This document shows, piece by piece, positions 28,744 to 59,600 of a stretch of DNA of 64,000 nt. The notes beneath the pieces are model-generated. The model was given only the letters and a program-made list of their open reading frames with translations, was not told where the DNA came from and ran no database searches. Origin of the DNA: Longimicrobiales bacterium (GTDB lineage Bacteria; Gemmatimonadota; Gemmatimonadetes; Longimicrobiales; Gaopeijiaceae); the NCBI GenBank assembly GCA_951828585.1, contig OX639991.1, forward strand, positions 3,702,001-3,766,000, in the 5' to 3' direction. Position 1 is the first letter of the stretch. Each line of letters begins with the position of its first letter. The translations under genes were made by a program, and so were the position numbers.

Positions 28744-28849
28744 TCGGGTCGCAATGGGCGTGGATCTGCGGCCCGCTGGACGGAAACCGCCGTGTGACCC
28801 CGCAAGTGTACTTTGCTCCCTGAGCGTGTCACGGTTTGTATACCAAACA

Positions 28850-28881
28850 TTACAAAATGTAAAGCTGAGTTTACATTGTAA
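28850..28881. terminator. AT-rich hairpin between convergent S41 protease and xer genes
   Basis: Stem AATGTAAA / TTTACATT (28856-28863 and 28870-28877) with loop GCTGAG, extended by TTAC / GTAA across a two-base bulge. It sits in the 159-base convergent gap and may terminate both genes. It belongs to the AT-rich island group: positions 28844-28865 resemble the islands at 38881-38922 and 58524-58540. Confidence 0.5.
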
Positions 28882-28902
28882 CAGCTCAGTCAACCGGCCT
28901 GT

Positions 28903-35476: not shown

Positions 35477-36450
35477 AACCGACCCTCTCTGGCCGCGGCG
35501 AGATCCCGCGCCATGTGGGCAATCAGGCCGCTCCGTACAGCCCGTGCGGCCACGCCGATTCCCGCCTTGATCGCCCGGGGAGAAGACTTCCCGTGGCAGA
35601 TCACGCTCACGCCGTTGACTCCCAGGAGCGGCGCGCCGCCGTGCTCGGCGTAGTCGAGGTCGCGCAGGCGGTCCTGAATCTCTTCACGAAGACCGTTCCC
35701 GCGCAAACCGGGCGCGAGCTTGCGGACCACGAAGGCGGCCACCGATTCGTAGAACTTCAACAGGATATTGCCCGTAAAGCCATCGCACACCGCCACATCG
35801 CAAGCGTGGCGCAGGATGTCGCCGCCCTCGACGTTGCCGACGAAGTTGAGGTCGCTCCCGGCAAGGAGTCTGTACGCCGCCTGGAGTACCTCGGTGCCCT
35901 TCTCGGATTCGGTTCCCACATTGAGCAAACCGACCCTGGGGTTCTCCAGTCCCTGCAGGTCCTGCATGTAGATCGTGCCGAGACGGGCGAATTCCACCAG
36001 CTGGCCTGGCTTGCACTCGATGTTGGCACCCACGTCCGCCACCAGGGTCAGGCCATGGTCGGTCGGAAACACGGTGGCAACGGGCGGTCGGTCCACGCCC
36101 CGGAGTGGGCGCAGCAGCACCAGCGAAGCCGCCATGACGGCACCCGTCGAGCCCGCCGACACGAAGGCGTCGGCCTCCCCCGCCTTCTGCAGGTTGAGCC
36201 CCACATTGATGGAGGAGCGGGGCCTGCGCAGGGCCGATGTCGGCGCATCCGACGCCATGATGCGATCCGGTGCGTGGACCACCGTGATCCGGTTCTGGCG
36301 GGAATGACGGCTCAATGAGTCCGCCAGCGCAGTCTCGTCTCCCACCAGCACCACCTGAACACCGGGATCGGCCCTCACCGCGGACACGGCACCCGCAACC
36401 TCACTGGCGGGGGCGTTATCCGTCCCCATCGCGTCGAGTGCGATCCTCAT
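35473..36450 (-). CDS. plsX: Phosphate acyltransferase
   Basis: 325 residues from the ATG at 36450. Motifs: IALDAMGTDNAPASEVAGA, VSAGSTGAVMAASLVLLRPLRGVDRPP, LVADVGANIECKP, GLLNVGTESEKGTEVLQAAY, DGFTGNILLKFYE and YAEHGGAPLLGVNGVSVICHGKSS. It makes acyl-phosphate from acyl-ACP for phospholipid synthesis. Normally rpmF is immediately upstream; here the 171-bp repeat array lies between, so plsX translation starts after about 900 bases of non-coding transcript. Confidence 0.95.
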   Translation of the reverse strand: MRIALDAMGTDNAPASEVAGAVSAVRADPGVQVVLVGDETALADSLSRHSRQNRITVVHAPDRIMASDAPTSALRRPRSSINVGLNLQKAGEADAFVSAGSTGAVMAASLVLLRPLRGVDRPPVATVFPTDHGLTLVADVGANIECKPGQLVEFARLGTIYMQDLQGLENPRVGLLNVGTESEKGTEVLQAAYRLLAGSDLNFVGNVEGGDILRHACDVAVCDGFTGNILLKFYESVAAFVVRKLAPGLRGNGLREEIQDRLRDLDYAEHGGAPLLGVNGVSVICHGKSSPRAIKAGIGVAARAVRSGLIAHMARDLAAAREGRL

Positions 36451-36485
36451 GCGGAAGCCGGTCTTCGCGGCGGCACGCCGGACGG

Positions 36486-37347
36486 CTAGCAGCCCGCGGA
36501 TGAAGCCGCCCGAGCACCGAGAGCGGCGAGGCGCCGGGCTGGCAAGGCGCGACGAGAGGTGAATAGCAGCGCTATTCGCCCGAGGAGCAACGCAGAGCGA
36601 AGCGGCCCAGCGCGGATGCATCGCCGCTCGAATGCCGGGAGGGTTTGTCCGCAGGCTGCCCAGCCCGCGGATGAAGCCGCCCGAGCACCGAGAGCGGCGA
36701 GGCGCCGGGCTGGCAAGGCGCGACGAGAGGTGAATAGCAGCGCTATTCGCCCGAGGAGCAACGCAGAGCGAAGCGGCCCAGCGCGGATGCATCGCCGCTC
36801 GAATGCCGGGAGGGTTTGTCCGCAGGCTGCCCAGCCCGTGGATGAAGCCGCCCGAGCACCGAGAGCGGCGAGGCGCCGGGCTGGCAAGGCGCGACGAGAG
36901 GTGAATAGCAGCGCTATTCGCCCGAGGAGCAACGCAGAGCGAAGCGGCCCAGCGCGGATGCATCGCCGCTCGAATGCCGGGAGGGTTTGTCCGCAGGCTG
37001 CCCAGCCCGCGGATGAAGCCGCCCGAGCACCGAGAGCGGCGAGGCGCCGGGCTGGCAAGGCGCGACGAGAGGTGAATAGCAGCGCTATTCGCCCGAGGAG
37101 CAACGCAGAGCGAAGCGGCCCAGCGCGGATGCATCGCCGCTCGAATGCCGGGAGGGTTTGTCCGCAGGCTGCCCAGCCCGTGGATGAAGCCGCCCGAGCA
37201 CCGAGAGCGGCGAGGCGCCGGGCTGGCAAGGCGCGACGAGAGGTGAATAGCAGCGCTATTCGCCCGAGGAGCAACGCAGAGCGAAGCGGCCCAGCGCGGA
37301 TGCATCGCCGCTCGAATGCCGGGAGGGTTCTGTCCACGGGCTGCTAA
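36486..37347. repeat. Five tandem 171-bp repeats between rpmF and plsX
   Basis: Near-identical units begin at 36490, 36661, 36832, 37003 and 37174 (CAGCCCGCGG in units 1, 2 and 4, CAGCCCGTGG in units 3 and 5). Each unit contains an internal hairpin (GAATAGC-AGC-GCTATTC) and a GATGCATC palindrome. The outer ends are inverted repeats of each other (CTAGCAGCCCG... on the left, ...CCACGGGCTGCTAA on the right). Because 171 is a multiple of three, several frames stay open as 57-residue repeats, but no ribosome site or gene-like codon bias supports translation. The right edge supplies the rpmF stop codon. Confidence 0.95.
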
Positions 37348-37526
37348 TCCTCGACGACTTCGAAGACCGCCTTCCCCCGGTACACGCCCGAAGTGGGACA
37401 GACCCGGTGGCGGAGCTTGGGGTCACCGGTTTGGGAACAGGTCCCCAGCGTTGCTTCCGAGGCCTTGTAGTGGGTGCGCCGCTTCCGCTTCCTCTGCTTG
37501 GACACGCGTTTCTTGGGGACGGCCAT
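37344..37526 (-). CDS. rpmF: 50S ribosomal protein L32
   Basis: 60 residues. MAVPKKRVSKQRKRKRRTHY is the classic L32 N-terminus; the C-terminal part contains C-x(n) features (LGTCSQTGDPKLRHRVCPTSG) and a terminal acidic tail. Only two of the four possible zinc cysteines are present, so it looks like the partly or fully zinc-independent form. Its TAG stop is part of the repeat terminus. It is 12 bases downstream of the yceD-like gene. Confidence 0.95.
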   Translation of the reverse strand: MAVPKKRVSKQRKRKRRTHYKASEATLGTCSQTGDPKLRHRVCPTSGVYRGKAVFEVVED

Positions 37527-37538
37527 GGGATGTCCTTC

Positions 37539-38045
37539 CTAGTCGGTTTTCAGGGATTGAAGAGCCGACCACCGTGGGTCGATGCCGGTTTCTTCGGTCA
37601 CATGGTTGAATCGATCTACGGGGTCGCCGCACTCCACGCAACGACCGTCTTCCTCGCTCGGCAGAAGGTACCGCGGCACCTCCAGCACGATCTCCTCCCG
37701 GATCGCGTCCGTCAGGTCCAGCATCGTCTGCTGATACCCGATGGTTCGCACATCCGGATCCGCCACCTCCCACCCGTCGGCCGGCATGTAGACCAGGGTG
37801 AGCGGCCGCGTCACCACGACCTTCAGTTGCTCCAGACAACGGCTGCAATCATAGAGCAGCGCGGCTTCCCAGGCGCCCCTCACGACGACGCCTCCATCGG
37901 CGGTCGGCGCGACCGAACCGGCGACCTCCACCGCTTCCGCAAAGGTCAGCTGAGAGCCGGCCCACACCTCGTCGTCCGAATCGATCCGTGCCTCCAGCGG
38001 GAGCGTTCGGCTTCGCCGCAGGTGCCGCAGATCGATGCGCAACAT
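37539..38045 (-). CDS. YceD / DUF177 family protein
   Basis: 168 residues from the ATG at 38045. DUF177 proteins precede rpmF in most bacteria and are implicated in 23S rRNA metabolism. Conserved features: EARIDSDDEVWAG, GAWEAALLYDCSRCLEQLKVVVTRPL with CSRC, and the C-terminal DGRCVECGDPVDRFNHV with CxxC; the four cysteines probably bind zinc. An ATG at 38051 lies upstream, but the -10 box at 38054-38059 would place the transcription start at about 38047. The ATG at 38045 is therefore preferred, on a leaderless or nearly leaderless mRNA. Confidence 0.85.
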   Translation of the reverse strand: MLRIDLRHLRRSRTLPLEARIDSDDEVWAGSQLTFAEAVEVAGSVAPTADGGVVVRGAWEAALLYDCSRCLEQLKVVVTRPLTLVYMPADGWEVADPDVRTIGYQQTMLDLTDAIREEIVLEVPRYLLPSEEDGRCVECGDPVDRFNHVTEETGIDPRWSALQSLKTD

Positions 38046-38053
38046 AGACATCT

Positions 38054-38083
38054 ATAATAGACAGAGTGAGCGAGTTCAGTCAA
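38054..38083 (-). promoter_or_regulatory. Sigma-70-type promoter of the yceD-rpmF-plsX-fab operon
   Basis: Reading the minus strand: TTGACT (38083-38078), an 18-base spacer, TATTAT (38059-38054). This is the best consensus promoter in the window and lies directly in front of the first gene of the fatty-acid operon. Confidence 0.7.
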
Positions 38084-38167
38084 GACTGAGTCTTGTCCAA
38101 CGGCAAGCCTGAACTACCGCGCTGGATCCGCCCTCGACGCAGGCGCGTGAGCCGCATCCCCCGCCCC

Positions 38168-38213
38168 AGCAGTCCGTGGTCGAATGCCGAGGGGAGTTGT
38201 CCACGGGCTGCTA
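38168..38213. repeat. Minimal copy of the terminal-inverted-repeat element after ndk
   Basis: About 46 bases: GCAGTCCGTGG on the left and CCACGGGCTGCTA on the right, with only TCGAATGCCG and a short G-rich piece of the unit interior between them. The right end provides the TAG stop of ndk. As RNA, the termini would pair into an 11-bp stem with one mismatch straight after the stop codon, so it could also act as a 3' hairpin. Confidence 0.75.
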
Positions 38214-38627
38214 TCCCAGACGGTCACACTCGGGGAAGAAGAAGCCGATCTCCCGTCGGGCATTCTCGTCCGAGTCGGAACCGTGTATGGCGTTGCGTTC
38301 CTTCGATTCGGCGTTAAGCGCCCGGACCGTGCCCGGGTCCGCTTCGGCCGGATCCGTGGCTCCAATAACTTCGCGCAGCCGCCGCACCGCGTCCGGCGCT
38401 TCCAGGGCCATGGGAATGCAGGGGCCGGAGGTCATGAACGCGACCAGGGAGCCGTAGAAGGGGCGCTCGCGGTGGACATCGTAGAATGCCTCGGCCTGGG
38501 CGCGTGTCATGGTGAGCATGCGCACGGCCCTGACGGTGAATCCGGCCGATTCTAGCTGGGCGATGATCCGGCCTGTCCTGCCGCTTCCGGCGGCATCGGG
38601 CTTGATGATGGCGAGCGTCTGGCTCAT
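38211..38627 (-). CDS. ndk: Nucleoside diphosphate kinase
   Basis: 138 residues, standard. MSQTLAIIKPDAAGSGRTGRIIAQLESAGF at the N-terminus, YDVHRERPFYGSLVAFMTSGP, and the phospho-accepting His in RNAIHGSDSDENARREIGFFF. It balances NTP pools. It ends in a TAG embedded in the repeat terminus. No clear operon partner: repeats flank it on both sides. Confidence 0.95.
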   Translation of the reverse strand: MSQTLAIIKPDAAGSGRTGRIIAQLESAGFTVRAVRMLTMTRAQAEAFYDVHRERPFYGSLVAFMTSGPCIPMALEAPDAVRRLREVIGATDPAEADPGTVRALNAESKERNAIHGSDSDENARREIGFFFPECDRLG

Positions 38628-38684
38628 GGAGTTTCCTGGTGAACGGGTGGGATTCGTGAATGGATGGTGGACATTGCACGCGGG

Positions 38685-38751
38685 CTAGTGTTGTGTCCCA
38701 GAAGTTCGTGAGCTACCGAATAGCCAAGAGATCTCCGGGGCACGACACTAG
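38685..38751. mobile_element. 67-bp MITE-like element with CTAG ends
   Basis: Inverted termini CTAGTGTTGTGTCCC (38685-38699) and its near complement (38737-38751, 13 of 15 matching), each with CTAG at the edge. No coding capacity. It abuts the left end of the next repeat copy, sharing one CTAG. The structure suggests a miniature inverted-repeat element, or the two ends of an insertion sequence with the middle deleted. The family was not identified. Confidence 0.6.
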
Positions 38752-39000
38752 CAGTCCGTGGATAGAGCCGCACGAGCACCGAGAGCGGCGAGGCGCCGGG
38801 CTGGCAAGGCGCGATGAAGGGGGAATAGCAGCGCTATTCGCCCGAGGAGCAACGCAGAGCGAAGCCTTGAGGTGGCACAATGTATACTACACATGACATA
38901 ATGTAATGTTTGCTTTACAGGATGAACAGCCGAAGCGAAGCGGCCAGCGCGGATGCATCGCCGCTCGAATGCCGGGGGGATCTTGTCCACGGGCTGCTAG
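38748..39000. repeat. Full-length dispersed repeat copy interrupted by an AT-rich insertion
   Basis: Bounded by CTAG on both sides: left terminus GCAGTCCGTGGAT, right terminus TCCACGGGCTGCTAG. The interior follows the 171-bp unit (hairpin GAATAGC/GCTATTC present) but is split after position 38865 by a foreign AT-rich segment. The right end provides the TAG stop of the CBS-domain gene. The 38628-38996 gap holds only this copy and the MITE-like element. Confidence 0.9.
38866..38941. mobile_element. AT-rich insertion with 7-bp target duplication inside a repeat copy
   Basis: Compared with the five array units, this copy has 76 extra bases. They are flanked by the direct repeat GCGAAGC (38859-38865 and 38935-38941), as expected of target duplication. 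The inserted core contains GTATAC, TGTAATGTTTG and GCTTTACA and resembles the islands at 28844-28865 and 58524-58540. No terminal inverted repeats are visible. Confidence 0.65.
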
Positions 39001-39830
39001 ATCACAATGGCCTCGGCGAAGGCTCGCATGACAGTGCCGCGAGTCAGGAAGCCAATGATCTCTCCGTCCCGCACGACCGGCAGCATCGAGACGCCTCGAG
39101 AGATCATGGACCGGCTGGCCACGAGGAGCGATTCATCCTCGGAAACGCACAGCACCGATCGGGTCATCAGATCTCGAGCCACCGGCGCCCTCCGTCCAGT
39201 CGGGCTGCCGGACTCCCGGCCCGACAGGGTGTGAGCCAGCACATCGGCGCTCGTGATGATTCCCAGCAGCTCATGGTTGGCGCCGATCACCGGAAGCGCG
39301 GCCACGCCCCGGCGCATCATCAGCTGCTGGATCTCCGCGAGGGGCGAGTCCGGATAGATCCGATAACTCAACGGCGTGAGGACATCTTCTACAGTAACTG
39401 TCATAGGTATATTATTGTCCACAAACGTGTTAGATGACAATACCTCTTCTATTGTATGAGTATCGGAATCGTGCATGTCGGCCGACACCCGTGCGAGCAG
39501 CGGCACCAGGAAGAGGTTCACCGAGGGTCGTGGCAGTCCCCACGTCACCCAGGTTGCACCGGTAAAGCGCCCCCCGTCCCCCATGCCTCTTTCGTCCAGA
39601 CACAGAATCAGACCTGGCGGTACGCCGTCACCACACAGATCGAGGAGATCCACGCGGCAGGCCATGGTTCCGAGGCGCGGCGCTCCACCGCTCCGGGTGA
39701 CCTGCCTCACGGACTGACGCAACCGGTGATCCGGATCGAGCCCGGACACATGGGTGCACAGGAACTCCCAGACGTCGTTCCCGGAACTCGTCAGGATTGG
39801 GGGCCGGGGCAGGAGCTGGCTCAGTCTCAC
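38997..39830 (-). CDS. Twin CBS-domain protein with a PtsN-like N-terminal region
   Basis: 277 residues. The C-terminal half has two CBS domains: VEDVLTPLSYRIYPDSPLAEIQQLMMRRGVAALPVIGANHELLGIITSADVL, and VARDLMTRSVLCVSEDESLLVASRSMISRGVSMLPVVRDGEIIGFLTR. The N-terminal ~120 residues vaguely resemble a PTS EIIA/PtsN fold (LLARVSADM end) but lack an obvious phosphorylatable His motif. CBS pairs bind adenylates and usually gate a partner activity. Residues ~120-150 are encoded by AT-rich codons (39381-39470), unlike the rest. Its TAG stop lies in the repeat terminus. Confidence 0.7.
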   Translation of the reverse strand: MRLSQLLPRPPILTSSGNDVWEFLCTHVSGLDPDHRLRQSVRQVTRSGGAPRLGTMACRVDLLDLCGDGVPPGLILCLDERGMGDGGRFTGATWVTWGLPRPSVNLFLVPLLARVSADMHDSDTHTIEEVLSSNTFVDNNIPMTVTVEDVLTPLSYRIYPDSPLAEIQQLMMRRGVAALPVIGANHELLGIITSADVLAHTLSGRESGSPTGRRAPVARDLMTRSVLCVSEDESLLVASRSMISRGVSMLPVVRDGEIIGFLTRGTVMRAFAEAIVI

Positions 39831-39835
39831 GGCTG

Positions 39836-39927
39836 GCAGCCCGTGGACAAGACCCCCACGGCATTCGAGCAGCGATGCATCCGTGCTGGGCCGCTACGCT
39901 TGACTTGCTTCATTCTCGGACTGCTAG
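39836..39927. repeat. Internally deleted repeat copy after sucD
   Basis: About 92 bases. The left terminus GCAGCCCGTGGACAAG is followed by the unit's CATTCGAGC.GCGATGCATC part and ends in GGACTGCTAG; the hairpin-containing middle is missing. The right end gives the sucD stop (TAG, 39924-39926). Confidence 0.8.
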
Positions 39928-40811
39928 CGCCCCAGCGCTTCTCCGACGAGTGCGGAGATCTCCACTGGGCGTCTCGCGACCTGGATTCCATTGTCCTCGA
40001 ATGCCTGGGTCTTCTCTGCGGCGGTGCCGGACGATCCGCTGATAATAGCACCCGCGTGACCCATGCGCGTCCCCGGCGGAGCCGTTCGTCCGGCGATGAA
40101 CCCAACGACGGGGATGTCGAGGTGCCCGCTCACCCATGCGGCGGCCTCCTGTTCCGCCGTGCCGCCGATCTCCCCGATCACGACGACCGCCTCGGTGTCC
40201 GGGTCGTCGGCGAAGGCGGCCAGGCAGTCCACGAAGCTCGTGCCGATCAGCGGGTCGCCGCCGATCCCGACGCAGGTGGTCTGGCCGAGGCCGTCCCGGG
40301 TGAGGTGGTAGACGGCTTCGTAGGTAAGGGTCCCGGACCGGGAAATCAGCCCGACCGGCCCGGGGGTCACCATCCGCCCCGGAATGATCCCCAGCGTGGT
40401 CTTGCCCGGGCAGATGATTCCCGGACAGTTGGGACCGAGCACGCGGCTTCCCCGGTCACGGGCCAGCGTGTGGGCGCGGGTCATGTCCAGAACCGGAATC
40501 CCCTCGGTCACGCAGACGATGAAGCCGACCCCGGCGTCGGCGGCCTCCATGATTGCGCTCGCCGCGAAGGCCGGAGGCACGTACACGACCGAACAGTCGG
40601 CACCGGTTTCGGCCACCGCGTCGGCGACGGTGTCGAAGATCGGCGCCGCGCGGCCATCCGGCCCTTCGAAGTCCCGGCCGCCCTTCCCCGGCGTCACCCC
40701 CGCCACCACGCGGGTGCCGTATGCCATCATCTGGCGCGTGTGAAACGAACCGTCGCGGCCCGTGATCCCCTGCACCACCACGCGGCTGTTCCCGTCAACG
40801 AATATCGACAT
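39924..40811 (-). CDS. sucD: Succinyl-CoA synthetase, alpha subunit
   Basis: 295 residues, standard. CoA-binding [69 protein letters not shown], and the phosphohistidine in [18 protein letters not shown]. It catalyses the TCA-cycle step from succinyl-CoA to succinate with substrate-level phosphorylation, as an alpha/beta complex with SucC encoded 36 bases upstream. Confidence 0.96.
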
Positions 40812-55305: not shown

Positions 55306-56076
55306 CTACCCGAGGACGAACCTCTGCCCGTCGCGGGCGCACACGACCGCGCCGCCATACCCTGCTTCGCGCACGAGACGGGGGGCGGAGACGCAGTCGA
55401 GGGGCGGGTAGAGGTGGGTGAGGACGAGGACGCCGGGCCGGGCGTCCCGTGCCATGGCGGCGACGGACGACGGGGACAGGTGGGACGGGGACGGGTCCGG
55501 TTGGCCGCACTCGCTCACCAGAAGATCGACCCCGCGAAAGAACGGGCCGAGCGCGGGGTCGGGTCCGGTGTCGCCGGTGTAGCCGAGTGAGCGGTCGCCG
55601 GTCCCGACGCGAACCGCGACCGAGCTGCCGGTGTGCGGGACGGGCAGAAACCGGAGCGACAGGCCGCCGGTCGCGGCGGCGCCCCGGCAGCCGCGACGGT
55701 CAACCTCGTCATAGGCGACTTCGAACCCGGGGTCGACGATGAAGTCACCGAACGCGCGCCGCAACGCCGCCACACGGCCCTTGAGCCCGGGCGGGCCCAG
55801 CACGTGAAGGGGCTGGCTGCGCGGCGACGGAGCCGCCCACTTGAGGGCGAAGAGGAGGTGGGGAAGGTCGCCGAAATGGTCCGTGTGGTAGTGGCTGAAG
55901 ACCACGTGGGTGACTTGCCACCAGGACCTGCGGTGACGGGCCATCCCGTGTACCGCGCCGGGTCCGGCGTCGAGAAGCAGATTGTGATCGCCCGCCTCCA
56001 GCAGGTGGCAGGCCGACGACCGGTCACCCGAAGGGACGAGGGTGCCCGAGCCGATGACGGTCAGGACCGGCGTCAC
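55306..56076 (-). CDS. MBL-fold metallohydrolase (RNase Z-like)
   Basis: 256 residues from a GTG at 56076 that overlaps the smc stop (GTGA). VIGSGTLVPSGDRSSACHLLEAGDHNLLLDAGPGA, the metal motif FSHYHTDHFGDLPHLL (HxHxDH), LPVPHTGSSVAVRV, LGYTGDTGPDP (Asp ligand), and LVLTHLYPP (final His) give a complete two-metal site. It lacks a clear RNase Z exosite arm, so the substrate is uncertain. Confidence 0.85.
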   Translation of the reverse strand: MTPVLTVIGSGTLVPSGDRSSACHLLEAGDHNLLLDAGPGAVHGMARHRRSWWQVTHVVFSHYHTDHFGDLPHLLFALKWAAPSPRSQPLHVLGPPGLKGRVAALRRAFGDFIVDPGFEVAYDEVDRRGCRGAAATGGLSLRFLPVPHTGSSVAVRVGTGDRSLGYTGDTGPDPALGPFFRGVDLLVSECGQPDPSPSHLSPSSVAAMARDARPGVLVLTHLYPPLDCVSAPRLVREAGYGGAVVCARDGQRFVLG

Positions 56077-59000
56077 GCGGCCGTTCCCGCCTCCCCCGTC
56101 CTCCCCTCCAGCCGCACGCCCACGATCGAGGACACTCCCGGTTCCTCCATCGTCACCCCGTAGATCCAGTCGGCCGCCTCGATAGTCCGGGGATTGTGGG
56201 TGATGACCACGAACTGGGTGTCGGCCTTGAACCCCTGCAACAGACGGATGAATCGTCCTATGTTGGACTCGTCCAGGGGAGCGTCCACCTCGTCGAGGAC
56301 ACAGAAGGGACTCGGCTTGACCAGGTAGATTCCGAAGAGGAGAGACAGGGCCGTCAGGGCCCGTTCGCCCCCCGAGAGCAGATCGATGCGCTGCGTGCGC
56401 TTGCCCCTGGGCGCGGCATGGATTTCCACGCGCGACTCGAGCGGGTTTTCCGGGTCCGAGAGCCACAGGTTGGCCTCGCCGCCGCTGAAGAGGTACTCGA
56501 AGGTGCGCTGGAAGTTCTCCCGGATCGCCTCGAAGCTCGTCATGAAGAGTTCGGTGGCGGTGGCGTTGATCCGCCGGATCGCCGCGCGCAGGTCGTTGCG
56601 GGCGGCGACCAGGTCCTCCTGCTGCCGCACCAGGAAGTCGAGGCGCTCGCTCTCCTCGGCGTGCTCCTCGACGGCCAGCATGTTGACCGCCCCGATCCGT
56701 CCCAGCCGCGTGACGATGTCCGATAGTTCGGCCCGCAGTTCGTCCGGGTCGCCCTCCGCGGGCTCGGCCTCGTCCACCAGGATCTCCAGCGACCGGCCCC
56801 ACTCCGTCTCGAGCCGCTCCCCGATGCGAGCGGCCCGGTTGCGGAGCTCCTGCCGCTGCATCTCCAACTGGTGTTCGCGTCCGATCGCGGCGCGTTCCCG
56901 GTCGCGGACCTCGCGTGCCCGCCGCTCCGCCGCGGCCACCGTCTCCGAGGCGTTACGCAGGGCGCGGTCGTGCTCGGCCAGTACGCCCCGCACCTCGTCC
57001 CGCCTGCCGAACAGCGTCTGCAGGGTCTCCTGACCCTCGCGGCGGATCTCCCGGGCCGCGGCCATCTCCGCGCCCAGCGTGTCGGACTCGCGGCCCAGTT
57101 CCGCGATGCGGGCCGCCGCGCGGCCGACGGCGGCCTCCCTGTCGGAGATGCGCCCGTTGAGGCGGGCGTACTCACTCTCCAGCCGGGCGGCACGCACGGC
57201 CATCTCGGATTCGGCCGCGCGCGCCTGTTCCCACTCGGCGTGGGCGGCGGCATGCACATCACGCAATCGGTCCAGCCGGCTCGTCAATGCGCCCTCGTCC
57301 TGGTGCAGCCGCGCCAGTTCCTTCGCGGCCGCCCTGCCCCGCTCCCCCGCCCTGTCGCGCGCGGCTCTCGTGCCCTCGAGTTGCCGCGAGATCTCCTCCT
57401 GGTGCCGGGTCAGCCGCGCGCGGCGATCGGTCTGCGCCCTCGCACCGGCCTCGGCCGCGCGGGCATCGTCCCGCGTGGCCAGGAGTCGTTCGGAGGCCGT
57501 GTCGGCCTCCTTCTCGCACTCCTCATGTTCACGGTCCAGAAGGCCGCGGGTCTCGCGCGCCTCCACGAGGTCGCGCCCGGCGGAGGCCAGCGCGTCCTCG
57601 AGCGCTTCCAGCCGGCTGGTCCGCTCCAGGTGCCCTTCCGCCCCCTGTTCCGGCACGAGGTGGAGCGCACCCAGGACATCGGTCCAGACACCATCCGCGA
57701 CGGCAGCGTGGTCTTCTCCGCCGTCGCCCGCGTTGTTCGCCGAGCCCGACGCTCCTGCCCCGAATTCCACCCCGCCAAGCAGGGCCTCGGCCCACGGTCC
57801 GCCCTCGCCGAAAGCGGTCACCCCAGCCGGAAGCGGTCCCTGCGTTTCCGGCGGCGCGTCCAGCGGCAGGAGCACCAGTCCCGCCTCGCGGCCGGGCTCC
57901 GAACGGTACCAGTGCGCGATCCGGCCGGCGTCATCGGCGCTGCCGACCACCAACGCCCGACCGAAGTGCCCCAGCACCGCATCCACCATACGGGGCGCCA
58001 CCCCGGTCACCTGCACATAGTCCGAGAGGATTCCGCGCACGCACTCGGGCAGCGCCTCTCGCGCGGCCCGGGCCACCGCCTCCATCCCCTCGCGGGAACC
58101 GCCCACGCGCCCGAGCGCCGCGAACTCCGCGTCCAGCGCCGCAGCCCGTCCCTCCGCTTCCCTCTCGGCGTCGCGGGCCGCAATCAGCCGCTCCCGCACC
58201 AGGGCCACGCGGCGGCGCGCCCGGCCCACTTCCCGTTCCGCCTCCCCAGCCCTTCTGGCCGTCTGGTCGCGGCGGTCCGAGAAGAGGTCACCCTGCGTCT
58301 GCAATTCCCTGAGCGCTCCCGCTCCCTCCCGCGACTCCGCCGACAGGCGATCGAACCTGTGCCCCAGCTCCCGGGACTGCAGACGGGCGCTGTCGCGATC
58401 GCCCTCGGCCCGGGCGACCGCCCTCGCGATCGCGCTTGCCTGTTCCTCCAGTCCCCGGACCTCGTCGCGGGCGGCCTCCACGCGCTGGCGTGCCTCGGCG
58501 GCCGCAGTCACTCGCGATGTCAACTCTGCTTTACATTCTGTCAACGCTGAATGACATTTGTCCCGTTCTGCCTTCAGCGTAACCACCTCGTCTTCGGACC
58601 TGACCCGGAGCGCCGCCAGCGAAGTCTCCTCCGCCGAGATCTGCACAAGGCGTCGATCTCCCCCGGCGATCCTCTCCTCCGCAACGGCCACTCTCTTCTC
58701 CACCCGGGCAAGCTCCGTTACCACGGCATCGAGGTGCCCGGCCGCCTCCACGCGCGCCTTCTCGGCCTCGAGGTGCTCCAACCGGGCCTGCTCCAGCGCA
58801 GCCTCGGCCGTGCCCAATCCCGCCGCCATCCCGGCGGCCTCCTCGCGCCCCCTCGCGAGCTCATCCTCGATGCGGGCCAGGCTGGTGTCCATATCGGCCA
58901 TATCCAGCCGGGCGACCGCGACCTCCACATCCAGCCGCCGCTTGCGCATCTCGCGGTATCTCTGCGCCTTGCCCTTCTGGCGGGCCAGCGACCGGACCTT

Positions 59001-59600
59001 GCTCCGCACCTCGGCGATCACGTCCTCCAGACGCTGCAGATCGGTCTCCGAGGTCTCCAGACGCCTGAGCGCGGCGCGGCGGCGGTCCTTGTACTTGCCG
59101 ATCCCGGCCGCCTCCTCGAAGAGCGAGCGGCGCTCGTCGGTGCGTTCCGAGAGGATGGCGTCGATCATGCGGATCTCGATGATCGAGTACGCGTTGGCCC
59201 CCAGTCCGGTGTCCCGGCACAGGTCCACGATGTCGCGCAACCGGCACGAGGAGCGGTTCAGCCGGTAGTCGCTCCCCCCGTCCCGAAAGACCGTTCGACC
59301 GATCTCCACCACCTCGTAGGGCACCGGGAGCGCGCCGTCGTCGTTGGAGACCACCATCGACACGGCCCCGCGGTTGACCGCCCTCCGCGACACCGTGCCC
59401 TGGAAGATCACCTCCTCCATTCTGGCACCGCGAATGGCCGTGGGACGCTGCTCGCCCAACACCCAGCGGATCGCGTCGCCGATGTTCGACTTGCCGCACC
59501 CGTTGGGTCCCACGATCGCCGTGATTCCGTCGTGGAACCCGATGCGGGTCGGGTCGGGAAACGACTTGAAGCCGTGGAGGTGCAGTGACTTGAGCTTCAT
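56073..59600 (-). CDS. smc: Chromosome segregation protein SMC
   Basis: 1175 residues, full length. N-terminal Walker A IVGPNGCGKSNIGDAIRWVLGE; R-loop and Q-loop regions (FQGTVSRRAVNRGAVSMVVSN); coiled coil ~170-500; hinge ~510-630 (LPECVRGILSDYVQVTGVAPRMVDAVLGHFGRALVVGS); second coiled coil; signature LLSGGERALTALSLLFGIYLVKPSPFCVLDEVDAPLDESNIGRFIRLL. It is an ATP-driven condensin for chromosome folding. Codons for residues ~347-360 (KCHSALTECKAELT) are AT-rich, unlike the surrounding gene, and match other AT-rich islands in the window. Confidence 0.96.
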   Translation of the reverse strand: MKLKSLHLHGFKSFPDPTRIGFHDGITAIVGPNGCGKSNIGDAIRWVLGEQRPTAIRGARMEEVIFQGTVSRRAVNRGAVSMVVSNDDGALPVPYEVVEIGRTVFRDGGSDYRLNRSSCRLRDIVDLCRDTGLGANAYSIIEIRMIDAILSERTDERRSLFEEAAGIGKYKDRRRAALRRLETSETDLQRLEDVIAEVRSKVRSLARQKGKAQRYREMRKRRLDVEVAVARLDMADMDTSLARIEDELARGREEAAGMAAGLGTAEAALEQARLEHLEAEKARVEAAGHLDAVVTELARVEKRVAVAEERIAGGDRRLVQISAEETSLAALRVRSEDEVVTLKAERDKCHSALTECKAELTSRVTAAAEARQRVEAARDEVRGLEEQASAIARAVARAEGDRDSARLQSRELGHRFDRLSAESREGAGALRELQTQGDLFSDRRDQTARRAGEAEREVGRARRRVALVRERLIAARDAEREAEGRAAALDAEFAALGRVGGSREGMEAVARAAREALPECVRGILSDYVQVTGVAPRMVDAVLGHFGRALVVGSADDAGRIAHWYRSEPGREAGLVLLPLDAPPETQGPLPAGVTAFGEGGPWAEALLGGVEFGAGASGSANNAGDGGEDHAAVADGVWTDVLGALHLVPEQGAEGHLERTSRLEALEDALASAGRDLVEARETRGLLDREHEECEKEADTASERLLATRDDARAAEAGARAQTDRRARLTRHQEEISRQLEGTRAARDRAGERGRAAAKELARLHQDEGALTSRLDRLRDVHAAAHAEWEQARAAESEMAVRAARLESEYARLNGRISDREAAVGRAAARIAELGRESDTLGAEMAAAREIRREGQETLQTLFGRRDEVRGVLAEHDRALRNASETVAAAERRAREVRDRERAAIGREHQLEMQRQELRNRAARIGERLETEWGRSLEILVDEAEPAEGDPDELRAELSDIVTRLGRIGAVNMLAVEEHAEESERLDFLVRQQEDLVAARNDLRAAIRRINATATELFMTSFEAIRENFQRTFEYLFSGGEANLWLSDPENPLESRVEIHAAPRGKRTQRIDLLSGGERALTALSLLFGIYLVKPSPFCVLDEVDAPLDESNIGRFIRLLQGFKADTQFVVITHNPRTIEAADWIYGVTMEEPGVSSIVGVRLEGRTGEAGTAA
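58521..58562. repeat. AT-rich island within the smc coiled coil
   Basis: Positions 58524-58540 match, with 15 of 17 bases, the reverse complement of the hairpin region around 28853-28869 (shared CTTTACATT core). The segment keeps the smc frame and encodes part of the first coiled coil. Confidence 0.5.

Follow-up and report, generated by a model that had tools for sequence, protein, structure and literature searches.

The Correia repeat enclosed elements of Neisseria, also known as NEMIS, are small intergenic MITEs with inverted repeats, present in more than 100 copies and forming a hairpin when transcribed; the accessible parts of their descriptions give two main lengths, about 107 and 155 bp, the longer having an additional 50 bp inside, where an IHF site lies (PMC2229807, PMC2649163). 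ERIC, RUP, REP/BIME, and other prokaryotic MITEs are characterized, in the accessible part of the source, as short, palindromic, intergenic sequences with many copies and no gene (PMC10969869). In Drosophila, the transposon ISX—according to the available portion of its description—dispersed 77 binding sites (PMC4384637).

Here we describe a repeat from a Longimicrobiales bacterium, possibly linked to Palauibacter and to sponge hosts (genome of 4,472,315 bp, one contig), found in a window of 64,000 nucleotides, positions 3702001–3766000, the features of which are listed in Table 1. It represents a new MITE family that has captured a double site, the latter probably bound by a protein. Among the systems covered by these partial sources the Correia/NEMIS elements are the closest: both repeats have two lengths that differ by an internal segment with a protein site (putative here), and, judged from sequence, long and short forms of the present repeat occupy the same locus in two species. 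The sites differ, being an IHF site in the excerpts on Correia elements and here a 40-bp double dyad that is also abundant outside the element and present once within a gene; the ends and the target are different too, the latter being 4 bp and CTAG/CCTG-like here. An IHF-type site has the form WATCAA-N4-TTR, and neither ATCAA nor TTGAT is present in the core consensus or in the copy at 38866–38941. Correia elements have their own end sequences and a TA target, which are not matched by the ends (CAGTCCGTGGA) and CTAG/CCAG-like flanks seen here. ISX, as far as its available description goes, is similar in that a transposable element spreads a ready-made binding site (putative in our case), and differs in being eukaryotic and in having a known partner protein. 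The traits given for ERIC, RUP and REP/BIME are those of the present repeat, although the accessible part of that source mentions no pair of core-carrying and core-less forms with a genus-wide free site (PMC10969869). A literature search turned up no publication describing this repeat or its site in Gemmatimonadota, and the words repeat, transpos and intergenic are absent from the Palauibacterales paper.

Table 1. Features of the repeat and of the double site in the window (window coordinates).
Feature	Position	Strand	Remark
Arms-free double site between a peptidase S41 gene and a xerD-like gene	28835..28883	+	absent in 20 relatives read
Five core-less (short-form) copies in tandem, period 171, 99% matches	36490..37344	+	
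Mini form, both ends only	38170..38210	+	
CTAG, left end of element (target or duplication)	38748..38751	.	
Long-form MITE-like element, 245 bp, ends CAGTCCGTGGA / TCCACGGGCTG	38752..38996	+	empty orthologous sites
First GCGAAGC	38859..38865	+	
Core cassette including second GCGAAGC	38866..38941	+	
First dyad (TGTA-N10-TACA type)	38881..38898	.	
Second dyad, 21 bp on	38902..38919	.	
CTAG, right end of element; TAG stop of the CBS-domain gene supplied by its CTA	38997..39000	.	
Truncated element copy between sucD and the CBS-domain gene	39837..39923	-	
Weak double-site copy inside smc (56073-59600, minus strand)	58510..58558	-	kept in four species

The first-pass annotation had described the 76 bases at 38866–38941 as a small AT-rich insertion marked by a 7-bp duplication, with the tandem array as the uninterrupted reference. 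These bases are indeed extra, having no counterpart in the 171-bp units of the array at 36490–37344, and GCGAAGC stands on both flanks (38859–38865 and 38935–38941), the second occurrence being the last bases of the segment itself. Their G+C content is 42.1%, compared with 62–72% per 2 kb in the window, and no coding capacity is evident among mechanically called open reading frames. The array lacks the segment as supposed, but other references exist, since among the copies read in the same genome 35 have the segment and 31 lack it. Inverted termini are absent, as had also been said, but the internal symmetry of the segment, a palindromic double site, had been overlooked. A hairpin-like MITE is dispersed in this genome, and the 76 bp are the core cassette inside its long form.

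A search of the genome with the element produced 232 candidates, 40 of which were scored and gave 63 matches; a 30-mer taken from its left arm is present at 69 places. In 51 fetched stretches and the window, 71 copies were read, of which 35 belong to the long form (about 245 bp and including the AT-rich core, one truncated copy being left out of this count), 31 are short (169–171 bp) and four are cut or interrupted. Both lengths, 245 and 169–171 bp, lie within the MITE size range (<500 bp), and the copies contain no gene and have the inverted ends CAGTCCGTGGA / TCCACGGGCTG. The whole repeat is one large imperfect hairpin that folds end to end; the short form is predicted to fold as a single rod over its full length (z -5.0), and in the centroid fold of the long form the core is unpaired within one arm (z -3.9). 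Rfam returned no family match to the element in 36000–40500, only two weak chance matches, both outside it. Near-identical tandem arrays with joints of 2–4 bp (CC, CCCG) are seen at 36490–37344 and at loci L005 (a tandem of three long copies), L045 and L024, and suggest recent local amplification.

Other sequences adjoin or interrupt the repeat. The left side of the element is adjoined by another short repeat (38689–38747), which has CTAG on each side and TGTTGTGTCCC...GGGCACGACA as its inverted ends, and ends TGTTGTGTCCC/GGGCACGACA also follow the element copy in L019. In six long copies (L019, L034, L035, L038, L039 and L042) the left end of the repeat is fused to a gene for a transposase of the IS110 family (Pfam DEDD_Tnp_IS110, tested on L039), always at the same point, CCATC|GTGGA instead of CAGTCC|GTGGA, as if IS110 may target this end; comparable IS110-type targeting of a repeat end is known for IS621 and REP. 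A candidate autonomous transposon between inverted ends 3.6 kb apart, at 3018594 and 3022239 of the genome, G000 (L122 1100–4745), was rejected, because these ends belong to one long copy whose core is interrupted by a different insertion. That insert, of about 3.4 kb, has ends like CCTTATTCACGAA, GTTAAC on both sides and lipoprotein-like genes, with no evident transposase.

Orthologous junctions identify the unit that moved. The CBS-domain gene is present in 23 congeneric genomes and is adjoined by ndk in 22 (L142 was left out). The ndk–CBS junction reads CTAG-element-CTAG in our genome, is empty in relatives G019 and G013 (84% and 80% identical protein, respectively), and has a truncated element copy at the same CTAG in G007 (80% identical protein); no element was seen in the other ndk–CBS stretches read. 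The inserted unit is thus the whole element. The sucC–sucD junction has a long copy with CCTG on both sides in G007 and is empty in our genome, G019 and G013, and at another site the element is present in G007 and G013 and absent from our genome and G003. The filled and empty orthologous sites that characterize a MITE are therefore found at ndk–CBS, at sucC–sucD and at one more site.

Because the whole 245-bp element inserted at CTAG, the GCGAAGC duplication was inherited with it and is not the mark of a local insertion that it had been taken for. The word is frequent in these repeats (16 occurrences in the window versus 3.9 expected with equal base frequencies), and exact GCGAAGC flanks the core on both sides in 18 of the 35 long copies, on the left in 23 and on the right in 29. 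The segment is a true insertion in being extra relative to the short, apparently older form, but the event did not take place at 38866, where it came in as part of the element. The feature is real, and the earlier reading, although wrong as to place, was well spotted; it is also partly true as a "small AT-rich insertion" because arms-free cores appear as new insertions elsewhere, after the xerD-like gene and in G015.

The 4-mers flanking long copies in our genome are weakly alike, with identical pairs in 5 of 35 (2.3 expected, p 0.057) and at most one difference in 16 of 35 (11.1 expected, p 0.023), and element copies are mildly uneven along the chromosome (p 0.04). Neighboring genes were called with a small codon-usage finder, checked on nine window genes, which misses rpmF. 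Long copies lie mostly in co-directed junctions, with the right end at the upstream stop codon and the left end near the next start; 25 of the 35 are oriented this way and three the opposite way, or 18 versus 3 (p 0.0015) without the IS110-adjacent copies and with L005 counted once. Short loci lean likewise (11 versus 3 by locus, p 0.057). This bias may come from target choice or from selection against one hairpin direction in an operon; it was rejected as proof of promoter use, the short form having the same tendency and IS110-bearing copies inflating the numbers.

As far as seen, the short form appears to be the older one, since other genera show core-less copies only and the element would be palindromic but for the core, which interrupts one of its arms. 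Matches to the element are present in 11 of 36 outgroup genomes, and all copies outside the genus are core-less as far as read (L074, L076, L077, L079–L081); within the genus the long form is the abundant one, with G009 having short copies only. The core probably entered the symmetric short element once, in this genus. Long and short forms, on the evidence of the aligned loci, were later interchanged: the clearest case of the empty allele that the first-pass annotation had proposed to look for is the end of a ribosomal-protein-like gene, which has a long copy in G007 versus a short one in our genome, the arms of the two being almost identical; at a second locus a single long copy in G003 and G013 corresponds to two short copies in our genome. 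On a tree of the arms, which has a weak backbone, the long/short label needs 13 changes, at least four of them forced.

Refinement of a weight matrix over the loci fetched from the genome led to a palindrome. The core is a symmetric double site of about 40 bp, made of two 18-bp TGTA-N10-TACA dyads 21 bp apart. Among 62 aligned sites, G4, T5, T37, A39 and C40 are invariant and A6, A18, C19, A20, T24–A28 and others are nearly so, giving position-specific constraint (GTA / ACA / TGTAA / TTAC) with symmetry about the center. Across 151 unique sites the half-sites are nearly invariant and other core positions vary, and mirrored positions are no more complementary than column composition predicts, several being less so. 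A reverse-complement hairpin is thereby rejected, and it is because of this lack of excess complementarity that we read the core as protein half-sites. The four half-sites fit a candidate site for one protein bound as two dimers, and the 21-bp spacing can be read in other ways.

The genome was scanned with a sequence-only model, which gave at least 150 matches, both-strand duplicates and the L005 triplet being merged by hand. At least 113 places were found among the matches listed, 34 in elements and 79 outside them, and the spread of these 79 along the chromosome fits a uniform one (KS p 0.86). The model also has matches in 21 of 22 congeners, G009 being the one without sites, with 35 to more than 100 sites each; in the outgroups, three of 36 genomes have one weak match each (E 1.7e-6, 0.001 and 0.007). 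The likeness of outside sites to the model is circular, because the model was built from such sites; independent support comes only from smc and a few orthologous pairs. Remnants of arms were scored at 75 outside sites, loci under the scan threshold (1 of 22 relic and 3 of 56 other sites) being left out: 53 are within the control range and so show no sign of arms (10 of 21, 42 of 53, and the xerD site), and 22 keep faint arms. The 56 further places read include 52 intergenic ones, of which 34 are co-directed, 11 convergent and five divergent, with one neighbor unread in two; the 22 relic sites comprise 10 divergent, nine co-directed and three convergent.

The copy within smc (identified by Pfam SMC_N) is kept without length change in our genome, G007, G013 and G003. 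Among columns with the same residue in these four species, the codon is identical in 9 of 10 within the site versus 328 of 795 in the rest of smc (Fisher p 0.0023), a value that is not free of selection because the site was picked after the scan showed it and one gene is concerned; its rank is plain, the site being the most codon-conserved 15-codon window of 918. The codons include TTG twice, ACA twice and AAA; all three are rare choices in these genes, encoding 7%, 6% and 14% of their respective residues. The site scores low, 25–45 versus 55–78 for most, and the G003 copy is under the scan threshold.

Turnover is seen at other loci. The xerD-gap site is not conserved at all, being absent in 20 of 20 relatives read (22 loci, that of G011 being unreadable), including three with 87–89% identical protein, and an arms-free site in G015 is absent in five other genomes. 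The site upstream of pyrF, followed in 22 genomes (G018 and G004 unreadable), is in place in our genome, G007 and G019 with a left flank of about 50% identity, is absent in 16 others read and has the opposite orientation in G011. Upstream of pyrF in G003 (L272), without a core, lies the palindrome TTGTGAAGGATTTCACAA, which we take to resemble a CRP/FNR-like palindrome; TTGTGAA, which forms its left half, is also found to the right of most cores. Orthologous sites retain 19–23 of 24 half-site columns, compared with 17.4 shared by arms-free sites that are unrelated. In the comparisons of pyrF, L161/L215 and G007/G003, one flank or both are less conserved than the core, which is no better kept than the flanks in the arm-bearing relics L085/L231 and L101/L211. 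The species-specific occurrence of several sites argues against an essential role.

We regard a double site for a putative host protein, carried around by the MITE, as the best explanation (probability about 0.6). A dimeric DNA-binding protein of this genus would bind the core as two dimers on one helix face. The short MITE, older than the genus, would have taken up a single site of this kind, flanked by GAGCGAAGC repeats, which the resulting long form would then have spread, mostly into gene junctions. Most carried copies would probably be passive, decaying or losing the core again by recombination between the repeats, and some sites outside elements may be kept by selection. Since free sites are found in both convergent and divergent gaps, and in one case within smc, we favor a DNA-binding protein of nucleoid or global type over a dedicated promoter switch. 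A fuller version is tentative: that a genus-specific chromosome-organizing or global regulatory protein binds the 40-bp double dyad at more than 100 places, one of them in smc codons, and that the MITE captured the site and rebuilds the site map in each species.

The new arms-free copies, absent from 20 relatives at the xerD gap and from five genomes in the case of G015, could also be explained if the core itself were a tiny mobile element of about 50–76 bp that inserts alone, in MITEs and elsewhere, the half-sites being sites for its recombinase or transposase. The 7–9 bp repeat flanking the core within the MITE is in keeping with this, but no constant boundary or direct repeat was seen around aligned arms-free copies, and the smc copy occupies the same codons in four species with length unchanged; we find this reading doubtful. 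Alternatively, the core might serve nothing but the mobility of the MITE, as an accessory site of the sort proposed for IHF in Correia repeats, with arms-free copies as leftovers of old elements; this would suit the abundance of the long form in the genus, the shared genus limits of the arms-free sites and the faint arms at 22 of 75 of them. Core-less copies are also dispersed and are found in outgroups, however, so the core is not needed for mobility, and the xerD site is armless although younger than the split from G007, since which arms elsewhere have stayed highly identical. This makes an accessory role unlikely.

A further reading is that the MITE brings a promoter to genes, perhaps one of sigma-70 type acting in both directions (about TTGACA-N17-TACATT on each strand); this is suggested by TGACA and TACATT spaced 17 nt in the consensus, by the sites upstream of pyrF and by the 10 of 22 relic sites in divergent gaps. 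We consider it quite improbable: a promoter scan found none at 38600–39100, the would-be -10 has C as its third base in every site and T as its sixth in only about half of them, convergent gaps outnumber divergent ones (11 versus 5) among the 52 intergenic places, and one site is inside smc. Very unlikely, finally, is an internal indel polymorphism of the MITE with AT-rich filler and no function; the alternation of long and short forms on the arm tree and their interconversion at one locus would be expected from it, but near-invariant half-sites amid variable core positions in 151 sites, and the conserved smc codons, would not.

If the protein-site explanation is true, one MITE distributes the sites of one host protein across a bacterial genus, and with 22 congeners sequenced, in which long, short and empty alleles occur as well as free ones, gain, loss and retention of sites could be traced locus by locus. 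It would point to a new sequence-specific DNA-binding protein with about 100 sites, one of them conserved in smc, and would provide a bacterial counterpart of the animal transposons that spread binding sites.
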